A DNA stretch of 64,000 nucleotides from Halomarina halobia (GTDB lineage Archaea; Halobacteriota; Halobacteria; Halobacteriales; Haloarculaceae). Every line of letters starts with the position of its first letter. Position 1 is the first letter of the stretch. The notes beneath the pieces were generated by a model. The model was not told the origin of the DNA, did not search any database, and saw only the letters and a list, made by a program, of their open reading frames with translations. The position numbers were made by a program, and so were the translations under genes. This document shows, piece by piece, positions 5,446-42,213 of the stretch. The DNA is taken from the NCBI RefSeq assembly GCF_029338575.1, contig NZ_CP119992.1:992001-1056000 (forward strand), given 5' to 3'.

Positions 5446-5805
5446 TTACACGGGTTCGAAGCGGTAGCCGTCCCAGGGCTGGCTGTCGGGCTCGCGGATC
5501 CCGGCACCCGGCTCGCGCAACTCGTCGACGTACACGGGTCGAACCTCGTCGCCGATGTCCACCTCGTCGGTGGTGAGTTGCCCGAGCGCGCGAACGGGTT
5601 CGCCGTCGACGTCGAACTCGACGATCGCGAGGTGGTTGGGCGCGCGCACGCCGGGCGGGGTGGCGGTGCTCGTCGTCCAGGTGACGACCGTCGCGGTGTA
5701 CTCGCTCAGGTCGACGGCCCCGACGGGCTCGCTGCCGTCGGGGCCGACGGGGTGACCGGGGTAACTGAGGCTGCCGTCGGCGTAGCGGACTGCCTCCATC
5801 GTCAT
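5446..5805 (-). CDS. OB-fold (DUF35-type) partner subunit of the thiolase
   Basis: 119 residues, start ATG 5805 overlapping the thiolase stop (ATGA, 5802-5805). The protein matches the OB-fold acyl-CoA-associated domain: a leading GSLSYPGHP, a VVTWTTSTATPPGVRAPNHL strand pair, then LAIVEFDVDGEPVRALGQL and VDIGDEVRPVY. In haloarchaeal thiolases a small OB-fold subunit of this kind pairs with the catalytic subunit and is needed for activity. Members often carry a zinc ribbon; none is seen here. It ends the SDR-pccB-pccX-thiolase operon. Confidence 0.85.
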   Translation of the reverse strand: MTMEAVRYADGSLSYPGHPVGPDGSEPVGAVDLSEYTATVVTWTTSTATPPGVRAPNHLAIVEFDVDGEPVRALGQLTTDEVDIGDEVRPVYVDELREPGAGIREPDSQPWDGYRFEPV

Positions 5806-6956
5806 CCCGCCACCTCCATGATCGTGGTGATGACGCAGTTGCCGAACCCGCCGACGTTGCAGCAGAGGCCGACCTCGGCGTCGACCTGCCGGGGACCCGC
5901 CTCGCCGAGGAGTTGCTCGTAGATCTCGTATCCCTGCGCCACGCCGCTCGCGCCGAGGGGGTGACCCTTCGACTTCAGACCGCCGGAGGTGTTGATCGGG
6001 AGGTCGCCGTCGCGCTCGGTGACGCCCTCCTCGACCGCCTCCCACGCGCGACCCTTCTCGAAGAAGCCGAGATCCTCGCTCTGGAGGAACTCGAGGATGG
6101 TGAACATGTCGTGTAACTCGGCGACATCGATGTCCTCCGGTCCGTAACCCGACATCTCGTAGGCGATCTCGCCGCTGTCGACGACGCCGCCCATGGTGGT
6201 CGGGTCGGCGCGCTCGTGGACGACGTGCGTGTCCGTCGCGCCGCCGATCCCCGCGATCCGGACGTAGTCGTCGGTGTACTCCTCGGCCACCTCGACGGGG
6301 CAGAACAGCAGCGCCGCGCTCCCGTCGGTGATCGGACAGAAGTCGTACAACCGGAGGGGGTCGGCGACGACCGGCGAGTCGAGGACGGTCTCGAGGTCGA
6401 CCTCCTTCCGGAACTGGGCGTGGGGGTTGTCCACGCCGTTCCGGTGGTTCTTCACGGCGACTTTCGCCAGGCTCTCGCGGGGCGCGTCGTACGTGTCGAG
6501 GTAGAGTCTCGCGGTCAGTCCCGCGAAACTCGGGAGGGTGACCCCCTGCTTGTACTCGACGGGGTGGGTGATCGAGGCGATGACGTCGGTCGCCTCGCCG
6601 GTCGACCGGTGGGTCATCTTCTCGCCACCGACGAGCAGCGTCATGTCGCTCGCCCCGCTCGCGACCGACTGCCACGCCGCGTACATCCCCGCCCCGCCGG
6701 AGGAGGAGGTCTGATCCACGCGCTGGGCGTAGGCCGGGAGCGCCCCGAGGTCGTGCGCGAGGGCGTTCATGATGCCCGTCTGCCCCTCGAACTCGCCGCT
6801 CGCCATGTTCGAGACGTAGACGTGATCGAGGTCGTGCGGGGCGACACCGGCGTCGTCGAGGCACTCCTTGCCGGCCTGCGAGAGGAGTTCGAGGATCCAC
6901 TCCTCGCGCTGGCCGAACTGGGTCATCGACGCACCGATGAGGGCGACGTCTGTCAT
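5802..6956 (-). CDS. Haloarchaeal-type beta-ketothiolase, catalytic subunit
   Basis: 384 residues from ATG 6956. The thiolase fold is clear: the nucleophile loop DQTSSSGGAG (81-90), the AELHDMF motif in place of the usual NEAF, GHPLGASG near the C-terminus and NVGGFGN at the end. The nucleophile position is Ser84, not Cys, giving the Ser-His-His arrangement reported for haloarchaeal thiolases. The reaction is condensation or cleavage of 3-ketoacyl-CoA, such as acetoacetyl-CoA or 3-ketovaleryl-CoA. The OB-fold partner follows with a 4-nt overlap. With the SDR and carboxylase upstream, it could feed polyhydroxyalkanoate or act in beta-oxidation. Upstream lies the hairpin leader. Confidence 0.92.
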   Translation of the reverse strand: MTDVALIGASMTQFGQREEWILELLSQAGKECLDDAGVAPHDLDHVYVSNMASGEFEGQTGIMNALAHDLGALPAYAQRVDQTSSSGGAGMYAAWQSVASGASDMTLLVGGEKMTHRSTGEATDVIASITHPVEYKQGVTLPSFAGLTARLYLDTYDAPRESLAKVAVKNHRNGVDNPHAQFRKEVDLETVLDSPVVADPLRLYDFCPITDGSAALLFCPVEVAEEYTDDYVRIAGIGGATDTHVVHERADPTTMGGVVDSGEIAYEMSGYGPEDIDVAELHDMFTILEFLQSEDLGFFEKGRAWEAVEEGVTERDGDLPINTSGGLKSKGHPLGASGVAQGYEIYEQLLGEAGPRQVDAEVGLCCNVGGFGNCVITTIMEVAG

Positions 6957-7105
6957 CGCCGACCCCCTGCCGCCTCTTGGGGCGGCAGAACACCGGAGGC
7001 GAGGACTGTCACGTCGCTCATCGCCGACCCTCCGCCGTCTCGTGTGACGGCGTACCACCGGAGGCGACGATCGTCGCGGCGCTCACGGCTCTCCTCCGTT
7101 GGAGG
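6957..7105 (-). promoter_or_regulatory. Tandem hairpin/micro-ORF leader before the thiolase
   Basis: On the minus strand two units start at 7086 (GTG) and 7021 (ATG), with the thiolase ATG at 6956: an exact 65-bp period. Each unit is a 22-codon open frame ending in GRR and a TGA that overlaps the next start (ATGA). Each contains a hairpin at the same register (7033-7052, 7 bp; 6967-6988, 8 bp; both 6-nt loops). Two base pairs differ between the units and both changes are compensatory. The first start has GGAGG six bases before it, sequestered in CCTCC-AAC-GGAGG (7105-7093). Both units carry GCCTCCGG, able to pair with a Shine-Dalgarno. This looks like an RNA regulatory leader or coupled micro-ORF relay. 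Confidence 0.6.
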
Positions 7106-7216
7106 GCGACGGTTCGTCTAGACTATCTGTTATCTTCCGATCACACATGGTGTTCTTCGTGAGGCGGTGATGCAGTTCGTATCGTGATAAGTGTTGGCAG
7201 CGACGGCCGGGGGTGG

Positions 7217-7555
7217 CTACCGCAGGCGACGCGCCCGCCCGGCCATCTTCCACTCCTCGCCCCGCCGCACCGATCGGGGGAGGTCGGACCGACGGCGGCA
7301 GCTGTAGCGTCCGGCGAGCGCCCAGCGATCGACGGAACTGGGTCCGTCGTCGTGGGCGGCGGCCGCCGCCGTTCGTTCGTCCTCGAGGTGCGCGCCGACG
7401 GCGCACGCGAGCGCCGCCGCCTCGCGGTCGGTGGCCGTCTCGGGGATCGTCACCGTCGTCTCCCCGGCGTCCGTCCGGATGTCGATGCTCCAGGTGTGGG
7501 TGTCGACGTCGAAGTCGAGGTCGACGTCGGTTTCGGTGTGTGCGTGGGCGGACAT
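7217..7555 (-). CDS. pccX: PccX-like small subunit of propionyl-CoA carboxylase
   Basis: 112 residues. The layout fits the small third subunit (PccX) described for the Haloferax mediterranei enzyme: an acidic N-terminus, a helix with alternating Ala/Glu ([20 protein letters not shown]), and a C-terminus with repeated basic/aromatic motifs [10 protein letters not shown] and [13 protein letters not shown]. It starts 4 nt after the pccB stop, so the two are cotranscribed. PccX is needed for activity of the archaeal complex; its structural role is unknown. A separate biotin-carboxylase/carrier subunit (PccA) is required but is not in this window. Confidence 0.8.
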
Positions 7556-7559
7556 AGCG

Positions 7560-9131
7560 TTACAGTGGGATGTTTCCGTGGTCCTTCGGCGGTCGATCCG
7601 CGCGCTTCCGGTCCAGCAGCGCGAGGTCCTCGACGAGCCGCTGGCGCGTCTGCTTCGGTTCGATGACGTCGTCGAGGTAGCCACGCTGGGCGGGCTTGTA
7701 GGGGTTGGCGAACTCCTCGCGGTACTCGTCCATCAGCTCCTCGCGGCGCGCCTCGGTCCGCTCGGTCGCGGCGAGTTCCTCGCGGTAGAGGATGTTCACC
7801 GCGCCGCGCGGTCCGAGGACGGCCATCTCCGCGCCCGGCCAGGCGTAGTTGACGTCCGCGCCGAGTTCCTTCGAGCCCATCACGATGTACGCGCCGCCGT
7901 ATGCCTTGCGCGTGATGACGGTGAGCAGCGGGACCGTCGCTTCGGAGTAGGCGTAGATGAGCTTCGCGCCGTGTTTGATGATCCCGTTGTGCTCCTGGTC
8001 GGTGCCGGGCATGAAGCCGGGCACGTCCACGAACGTCAGGATCGGGAGGTTGAACGCGTCGCAGAAGCGCACGAACCGCGCGCCCTTCTGGCTCGCGTCG
8101 ATGTCGAGCGTCCCCGCGTTCGCCCGCGGCTGGTTCGCCACGATGCCCACCGGTCGCCCGTCCATCCGGGCGAAGCCGACGACCAGGTTGCGGGCGTAGC
8201 CCCCGTGGACCTCGAAGAGCGTCCCGTCGTCGACGAGCTCCTCGAGGACGTTCGTCACGTCGTAGGGTTTCTTCGGCTCGTTCGGGACGATGTCGTCGAG
8301 CGCGTCGCACGACCGGTCGGGGTCGTCGTACGGTTCGACGCGCGGCGGGTCCTCGAGGTGGTTCGCTGGCAGGTACGACAGGAGGTGCCTGATGTCGTCG
8401 AGCGCGTCCTCCTCCGAGGAACAGGTCACGTGCGCGACGCCGCTCTTCGAGGCGTGCGGGCGCGCGCCGCCGAGTTCGTCCTTCGATATCTGCTCGCCGG
8501 TGACCGTCTCGATGACGTCCGGGCCGGTGATCATCATGTGGCTGGTGTCGTTCACCATGACGGTGAAGTCCGTCAGTGCGGGCGAGTAGGTCGCCCCGCC
8601 CGCGCACGGACCCATGATGGCCGAGATCTGCGGGATGAGACCGCTGGCCTCGGTGTTGCGCCGGAAGATGCGCGCGAAGCCGACCAGCGAGTCGACGCCC
8701 TCCTGGATGCGCGCACCCGCGGAGTCGTTGAGCCCGACGATGGGGACGCCCGCGTCCATGGCCATGTCCATCGCCTTGCAGATCTTGTCGGCGACCGCCT
8801 CGCCGACCGACCCGCCGAGGACGGTGAAGTCGTGGGCGAACACGAACACCGGGCGGCCGTCCACCTCGCCGCGGCCGGTCACGACCGCGTCGCCCGGGTA
8901 GCGCTTCTCGGCCATGTCGAAGTTGGTCGACTGGTGCTCGACGAAGGTGTCGATCTCTCTGAACGTACCTTCGTCGAGGAAGTACTCGACGCGCTCGTGG
9001 GCGGTCAGCTTCCCCTTCGCGTGCTGTCTGTCGATGCGCTCCTGGCCCCCACCCTGCCGGGCGGCCTCGCGCCGACGCCGAAGCTCCTCGACGGGGTCGG
9101 CGGATTCGGTGCGCGGGACCTCCTGACTCAT
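7560..9131 (-). CDS. pccB: Propionyl-CoA (acyl-CoA) carboxylase carboxyltransferase subunit
   Basis: 523 residues, normal for PccB. Two carboxyltransferase halves are seen: the N-terminal half with [14 protein letters not shown], the [14 protein letters not shown] oxyanion region and [16 protein letters not shown]; the C-terminal half with [38 protein letters not shown] and [19 protein letters not shown]. It moves CO2 from carboxybiotin to propionyl-CoA or acetyl-CoA, yielding methylmalonyl- or malonyl-CoA. The SDR gene ends one nt upstream and pccX begins four nt downstream. Specificity (propionyl versus acetyl) is inferred from PccX and the context. Confidence 0.93.
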
Positions 9132-40956: not shown

Positions 40957-42213
40957 TCACTCGGCCAGGTCGGCGTACGCGTACGGGATCCGCGCGTACG
41001 TTATCGCGTTACCGACCAGCGCGCCGGTAGTCGTGTACTCGTCGACGGCGTGCACCGTGTCGGTCCCGAGGGCGAACTCGACGGTCGGAATCCCCGCCCG
41101 TCGGAGCTTCTTCGCGTCGCCGCCGCCGGTCGCGCTCCGTCGGTACACCCGTCCGCCGGTCACGTCTTCCGCGACCGCCGTCACGGCTTCGACGAGCGGA
41201 CTGTCGATCGCCTCGGCGGTACCGACGCTCCACGAGATGTCGGTCAGTGTCACGCCCTCGCACCCGTCTACACACTCGCGGACGTCGGAGAGCACGTCGG
41301 GCGTGTACACTCCCGCGGTCAACCGGATGTCGATCTCGGCGCGCGCGGACTGCGGAACGCTGTTGATCGCCTCGCCGCCCGCGATCCGTCCGAGATTGAT
41401 CGTCGGATATTCGAACAGTCGACGCGCCGTCGATTCGCCCATCATCGGTTCGTAGTACTCGACGGACTCGTCGACGATCCGCTCTATCGCGGGAACGATC
41501 GTCAGCGCCCGCGTCCCGAGCCCCCCTCGCAACTCGGTGACGGCGTCGTACAGCCGATCGATCGCGTTCACGCCGAGCATCGGCCGCGAGCCGTGTGCGG
41601 CCTCCCCGCGGGCCTCGAGCGTCAGCCAGATGCTGCCGCGATCGGCGACCGTCACTGAATGGCGACCCTCCTCGCAGGTCGGTTCGCCGATGACGCACGC
41701 GTCGGCCCGGATTCGGTCCACGTCGAGGAGGGCCGGCAGGCCGGCGTCGCCGCCGATCTCCTCGTCGCTGACGAGGGCGAAACGGAGAGTGACCGGCGGC
41801 GTCGTCCCCGTTTCGACGTACGCGCGAGCGGTCGCCAGCATCGAGGCCACCGCGCCCTTCATGTCCGTGGCACCGCGGCCGTACAGCCGATCCCCGTCGC
41901 GCCCGCCCAGCGGGTCGCGGGTCCACTCGTCGGCGTCGAAGGGGACGGTATCGACGTGACCGTTGAAACAGAGCGCGCGGTCGCGTTCCCCCGGCAGCGT
42001 CGCGAGGAGGTTCGGCTTCGCCGGATCGACGGCGTACCGGGCCGTCGGCAGTCCGAGCGCCTCGAAGCGGGCGTCGAGCCAGTCGACTATCTCGCGGGTC
42101 CGCCCGGGCGGGTTCTGCGTGTCGAACTCGAGGAGTTCTCGCGCGCGAGTGACGAGGTACTCTCGACGCTCGCGCAGGAACGTCACCGGCGGTTGGGGTG
42201 TCGGGGGATCCAT
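40957..42213 (-). CDS. M20-family peptidase/deacylase (ArgE/DapE type)
   Basis: 418 residues. Zinc-peptidase motifs: NGHVDTVP (His and Asp ligands), GATDMKGAVASMLA with the second metal Asp, SDEEIGGDAG with the catalytic Glu, and the dimerisation domain AHGSRPMLGVNAIDRL. The C-terminal metal His sits in TDTVHAVDEY. It removes an acyl or peptide group from an amino acid, like ArgE, DapE or carboxypeptidase G2. The substrate is not determined; no lysine or arginine pathway genes flank it. Confidence 0.9.
   Translation of the reverse strand: MDPPTPQPPVTFLRERREYLVTRARELLEFDTQNPPGRTREIVDWLDARFEALGLPTARYAVDPAKPNLLATLPGERDRALCFNGHVDTVPFDADEWTRDPLGGRDGDRLYGRGATDMKGAVASMLATARAYVETGTTPPVTLRFALVSDEEIGGDAGLPALLDVDRIRADACVIGEPTCEEGRHSVTVADRGSIWLTLEARGEAAHGSRPMLGVNAIDRLYDAVTELRGGLGTRALTIVPAIERIVDESVEYYEPMMGESTARRLFEYPTINLGRIAGGEAINSVPQSARAEIDIRLTAGVYTPDVLSDVRECVDGCEGVTLTDISWSVGTAEAIDSPLVEAVTAVAEDVTGGRVYRRSATGGGDAKKLRRAGIPTVEFALGTDTVHAVDEYTTTGALVGNAITYARIPYAYADLAE

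Follow-up and report, generated by a model that had tools for sequence, protein, structure and literature searches.

Tandem 65-nt hairpin repeats at gene starts in Halomarina: an apparently undescribed dispersed family and a possible translational relay

The leader of a thiolase gene in Halomarina halobia contains two tandem 65-bp units (minus strand, 7086-7022 and 7021-6957) which, as we conclude from their recurrence and fold, are members of a small Halomarina family of dispersed 65-nt hairpin modules. Coordinates refer to the window, the whole stretch of 64,000 nucleotides that was analyzed (contig NZ_CP119992.1, positions 992,001 to 1,056,000). This dispersed hairpin repeat is apparently previously undescribed, and comparison between loci indicates that its stems belong to a family located at several genes, rather than to the thiolase alone. 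The evidence that decides against chance is the recurrence of the unit with covarying stems. We lean towards interpreting the modules at gene starts as self-contained links of a translational relay.

The thiolase leader is organized as a chain of short overlapping reading frames on the minus strand. A TATA-like box (ACTTATC, 7186..7192) lies 44 nt 5′ of the first chained ATG (7148), which opens a starter micro-ORF of 21 codons (MCDRKITDSLDEPSPSNGGEP, 7083..7148) without a Shine-Dalgarno sequence. This third chained ORF, located 5′ of unit 1, had escaped the earlier note on this DNA; its stop overlaps the GTG of unit 1 (GTGA). The starts at 7086, 7021 and 6956 follow each other at exact 65-bp steps, as had been noted, but the start at 7086 is a GTG, not an ATG. 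The micro-ORFs of unit 1 (VSAATIVASGGTPSHETAEGRR, 7018..7086) and unit 2 (MSDVTVLASGVLPPQEAAGGRR, 6953..7021) are 22-codon frames, as previously described, whose TGA codons overlap the ATG of unit 2 and of the thiolase, respectively, and their peptides are identical at 11 of 22 positions. The thiolase itself (Thiolase_N and Thiolase_C_1, 384 aa, 5802..6956) is followed on the same strand by its OB-fold partner (OB_ChsH2_C, 5446..5805), whose ATG at 5805 overlaps the thiolase stop (ATGA, 5802-5805). This last overlap was also missed at first, and it extends the overlap chain through the operon. The 65-bp array is found independently by Tandem Repeats Finder (6946-7085, 2.2 copies, 78% matches).

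Each unit contains an inner hairpin at the same register, at the positions first noted: 7 bp in unit 1 (7033..7052, minus strand; CGCCGTC/ACACGA/GACGGCG, loop ACACGA) and 8 bp in unit 2 (6967..6988, minus strand; CTGCCGCC/CCAAGA/GGCGGCAG, loop CCAAGA). The two stem pairs that differ between the units are compensatory, as the earlier note had claimed. The full predicted fold of unit 1 (7021..7067) adds an outer stem (7067-7063:7025-7021), which includes the first base of the next start, and a pairing of CC 7061-7060 with GG 7029-7028 of the Shine-Dalgarno sequence. That of unit 2 (6956..7002) consists, besides the inner stem, of an outer stem (7002-6998:6960-6956) that takes in the A of the thiolase ATG and of CC 6996-6995 paired with GG 6964-6963. 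The Shine-Dalgarno sequence of the unit 2 start (GGAGGG, 7028..7033, duplex -10.0 kcal/mol) and the similar AGGGGG of the thiolase start (6963..6968, -10.3 kcal/mol) are both mostly paired in the predicted fold, with mean unpaired probabilities of 0.07 and 0.11 for their regions. A GGAGG (7097-7093) and a CCTCC (7105-7101) are present as had been reported, but the minimum-energy fold pairs this CCTCC elsewhere, and not with the GGAGG as proposed. The fold of the 171-nt leader has a z-score of -2.43, with 3 of 200 shuffles equally good.

A first covariance model was built from three thiolase units, and its matches elsewhere were then read locus by locus, which revealed more units with 65-bp spacing at other loci. 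The hairpin is missing at most orthologous thiolases, and the unit is present at other Halomarina genes. A second model identifies 17 units in three of the eight Halomarina genomes, with no further matches at E<=0.01. There are 2-8 copies per genome in these three species, in arrays of 1-3 units with 65-bp spacing. Arrays precede the thiolase in the window genome (2 units) and in Halomarina sp. BND7 (G004; 1 unit), a FAD-dependent oxidoreductase gene in the window genome (3), G004 (1) and G005 (2), and an NAD-epimerase-like gene in the window genome (3) and G004 (1). Two further arrays, of 3 units and at least 1 unit, are located immediately 3′ of two glmS genes of G004. Covariance models found no units outside Halomarina in 146 genomes of the family or 293 of the order, under strict filters by which only part of the first-look candidates was scored per genome, so that diverged copies could be missed. 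Weak, low-score matches of models R1 and R3 in other genomes were taken as noise, and the R1 matches that were read (L141-L145) hold no arrays. A viral source was rejected, as there is no phage match and none of the 53 viral contigs with the sequence pattern matches the covariance model; for a plasmid source, the only match is G004's own plasmid.

Covariation in the alignment of these units is strong. Across 15 units, standard pairs fill 95.8% of the inner-stem cells, and 7 of 8 pairs have changed on both sides; for the full fold of the nine units with distinct inner stems, the values are 94.8% and 10 of 15 pairs. These counts overstate the number of independent events, since the copies are related by descent and by gene conversion between loci. 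No shuffle attains the pairing percentage or the covariation score of the inner stem, a slide by one column reduces its pairing to ~30%, and 0 of 500 shuffles match the full fold. RNAalifold, given the alignment alone, recovers the same fold, including the outer stem and the CC:GG pairing on the Shine-Dalgarno sequence. At its end, the outer stem pairs the first base of the following start codon, which faces T in ATG units and C in GTG units, or T in two of the latter (U-G). An alternative outer pairing (CCGGTG/CGCCGG, columns 10-15:45-50) displays clearly less covariation than columns 3-8:46-51 and was discarded. In a comparison of strands, wobble pairs comprise 7 T-G versus 4 C-A/A-C cells. 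For the thiolase unit of G004, a competing fold dominates the prediction, and the inner stem has a probability of 0.07. Replication could also restore pairing in the absence of selection, through hairpin templating.

All seven gene-start arrays display unbroken 4-nt stop-start overlaps from an upstream start into the host gene. The chain survives a 66-nt unit in which two frames fuse, and it is also kept where the first unit is without a start and is entered in frame from a starter ORF. The overlaps are of the lengths found in termination-reinitiation coupled cistrons (4, 1 or 8 nt), being 4 nt throughout with one of 8 nt (G005), and the Shine-Dalgarno sequence is located inside the end of the upstream frame, as expected of such cistrons. 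An ATGA overlap arises automatically if the second codon begins with A. Every chained start has a Shine-Dalgarno sequence, which is generally absent at first starts; duplex energies range from -5.6 to -10.4 kcal/mol at chained starts and from +1.0 to -5.6 at first starts, with a median of -3.1 in other genera, and shuffles indicate that this strength partly represents G-richness. Differences between units are distributed about evenly over the codon positions (32, 45 and 41), without third-position excess, which argues that the peptide is not conserved as such. Together with the covariation across 15 units, the lack of codon-position bias bears out the earlier impression that the RNA structure is more conserved than the peptide.

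These features (covariation, chained overlaps in all gene-start arrays, Shine-Dalgarno sequences at chained starts and no codon-position bias) support the translational relay that had been suggested for the thiolase leader. A ribosome would start on the starter ORF near the transcript 5′ end, behind a haloarchaeal promoter, or arrive from the upstream gene. It would then translate the short frame through the module hairpin, thereby opening it, terminate on the TGA overlapping the next start, and reinitiate there via the just-exposed Shine-Dalgarno sequence. The folded module, with its outer stem on the first base of the start, CC:GG on the Shine-Dalgarno sequence and the inner stem, would keep the start closed to independent initiation. 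As a unit spans one stop-start overlap to the next, the gene should stay coupled at any copy number (1-3), and since coupling is then independent of copy number, copies may spread to such junctions and multiply there in tandem while the gene stays on. The copy number may also tune the yield of the gene. For overlapping gene pairs of Haloferax volcanii, translation of the second gene strictly requires that of the first, Shine-Dalgarno motifs within the first gene often help reinitiation, and reinitiation is strict at 4-nt overlaps and abolished by a 22-nt gap (PMC6728339, PMC10666635). By this rule, inserting 65 nt with no frame to bridge them should silence the downstream gene, and exactly such a bridging frame can be read in the units.

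The strongest rival explanation is that the family is a selfish or neutral palindromic repeat (MITE-, REP- or BOX-like) tolerated at gene boundaries, with the chained frames as the survivors in operons. It would have spread by recombination or by some transposase, and the hairpin would serve mobility or persist by hairpin-templated repair. We regard this as a serious possibility, although on balance the less likely one. The copies are dispersed, tandem and low in number, and their number differs between orthologues, as expected of such a repeat, but covariation links the outer stem to the first base of the start, the Shine-Dalgarno sequence is paired in the consensus fold, and the chain is kept in 7/7 gene-start arrays. 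The glmS arrays (L136, NZ_CP100459.1 ~41,221-41,423; L139) also speak for a neutral repeat. They follow the stop codons of two diverged paralogues in G004, in reverse orientation, with an extended outer stem and without start codons (GTG changed to GGG). The hairpin is therefore not dependent on translation, and as such hairpins exist without a relay role, the family may also be no more than a selfish repeat, tolerated wherever the chain stays intact. The glmS arrays are a possible 3′-end or stability element; no arrays were seen at the other glmS genes examined. An IS200-type transposase-like ORF, recognized by eye, lies ~240-700 nt from the single-unit glmS array (L139), beside a partial unit, and is likewise consistent with a mobile origin. 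Against this, covariance-model searches elsewhere in the genomes found no other copies near insertion sequences and no transposon end bearing the structure.

Empty sites are found at two of the host loci. The stop of the gene upstream of the epimerase directly overlaps the epimerase start in genome G001, where there is no array, and this is precisely the junction occupied by the arrays in G004 and the window genome. In G002 and G006, an intact upstream creatininase gene overlaps the FAD gene. In array-bearing species, a 5′ stub of the creatininase is evident in G004, less of it remains in the window genome, and none can be recognized in G005 (L134, L138, L140); a TATA-like motif precedes the start of the stub, or of the short ORF replacing it, by 29-30 nt, and the frame is still that of the chain to the FAD gene. 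The target-site comparison shows ~16 nt of the local start repeated, and the epimerase copies are non-identical, with no clean duplication. The outer stem amounts to an inverted repeat. In the window genome, the arrays at the FAD and epimerase genes (L134 and L135, ~10 kb apart) have an identical stem order, A-B-A, and in array-bearing species the first 20 nt of these two host genes are nearly identical and much like the units. The common gene starts and stem order imply that sequence moved between the two loci, a transfer also expected of a neutral repeat, and point to gene conversion between L134 and L135 and to protein N-termini that would be derived from units.

Most thiolases of other haloarchaeal genera are leaderless, with a TATA-like motif at a median of 30 nt before the ATG in 77 of 99 loci, and as a rule they lack an upstream frame. 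All eight Halomarina species have a short upstream ORF or ORF chain ending on the thiolase start, and in all eight a TATA-like box 31-44 nt before the first chained start serves this short ORF. Every upstream ATG in these eight leaders is chained by strict 4-nt overlaps to the thiolase start, save one in G005 whose frame overlaps the next start by 8 nt. The chance of such chaining in dinucleotide shuffles is 0.13-0.38 per species, or ~6e-4 over five lineages taken as independent. As the leaders vary in length from 14 to 192 nt and hardly align, the upstream frame has been kept through many length changes. The leader of G005 (L011) contains a nine-codon frame, MRDATEGRR*, that looks like the 3′ end of a unit and could have been left by a deletion; by eye, remnants in the G005 and G003 leaders are suggestive, without support from the covariance model.

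The earlier note had proposed an RNA switch controlling the thiolase/OB-fold pair, and had named the absence of the stems from orthologous loci as the finding that would count against it. This absence is largely what is observed, and a switch specific to the thiolase was rejected: the hairpin unit occurs at the thiolase of the window genome (2 copies) and G004 (1), and neither the other six Halomarina orthologues nor any other genus searched has it. A ligand-responsive riboswitch or leader-peptide attenuator specific to this operon would account for the structured leader, the sequestered Shine-Dalgarno sequence and the short ORFs, but we consider it very improbable, given that the fold is present at unrelated genes and that there is neither a conserved peptide nor a run of regulatory codons. 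The unit matches no Rfam family at the gathering threshold (only 15.4 bits versus a cutoff of 181.5), which agrees with the earlier view that it is not a known riboswitch class and leaves a ligand sensor unsupported. A plain, functionless tandem duplication of the gene start with an accidental stem match, suggested by the 65-bp direct repeat, by the thiolase-like beginning of unit 2 and by the single unit of the sister species, is scarcely credible and is refuted by the covarying stems of units dispersed at unrelated genes in three species.

Coupling by termination and reinitiation with fold-dependent starts is a known type of mechanism, and families of short palindromic repeats are known as well (BOX, PMC3049150; REP, PMC3733652; Rickettsia elements, PMC10969869), whereas our search of the literature found no repeat whose units each form a link of a translational relay. 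The units resemble haloarchaeal genes coupled at 4-nt overlaps (PMC6728339, PMC10666635) in their ATGA/GTGA overlaps, intragenic Shine-Dalgarno sequences and expected dependence on a translated upstream frame. However, the upstream "genes" here are 22-codon hairpin modules, tandem and dispersed, with no peptide constraint. BOX elements of Streptococcus pneumoniae are likewise built of hairpin modules, with a core repeated in tandem a variable number of times; they lie near genes and can alter downstream expression (PMC3049150). In contrast, the Halomarina units are archaeal, GC-rich and of very low copy number, have overlap-to-overlap frames, and show no end modules like boxA or boxC. GTAG/CGTC-tagged REP sequences (PMC3733652) share stems of 6-9 bp, complementary changes between subfamilies and grouped copies, but the aligned Halomarina units carry no GTAG or CGTC tag beside the stem and are 65-nt, head-to-tail and fixed in spacing. 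Rickettsia palindromic elements, as described in PMC10969869, are similar as short palindromic repeats that leave the host reading intact after insertion; they insert in frame inside proteins, whereas each Halomarina unit terminates with a TGA and starts another frame.

The repeats could represent a new class of element: dispersed tandem arrays in which each unit forms a complete relay link (start codon, hairpin, Shine-Dalgarno sequence and overlapping stop). Such an element would insert and multiply at stop-start junctions with coupling kept, and its copy number would set translation. We offer this proposal only tentatively and consider it rather unlikely. Reinitiation within haloarchaeal operons relies on stop-start overlaps. 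A repeat that brings its own overlap-to-overlap frame would show how DNA can enter and amplify at such junctions without silencing a gene, and the chains would allow the number of serial reinitiation steps per ribosome to be measured. The genus-wide shift from a leaderless thiolase to one with a starter ORF would provide a natural experiment on the origin of mini-cistrons, as would the creatininase decayed to an in-frame stub.

Two minor observations concern the region upstream of the thiolase leader. A small ORF (7217-7560) after the carboxyltransferase gene has no Pfam match and may resemble the small subunit of haloarchaeal propionyl-CoA carboxylase. Between 7160 and 7148, the position aligned with 7160 is an ATG in six other Halomarina species, ACG here and GCG in G004, and the start codon in the window is shifted 12 nt downstream of this site with the frame unchanged.
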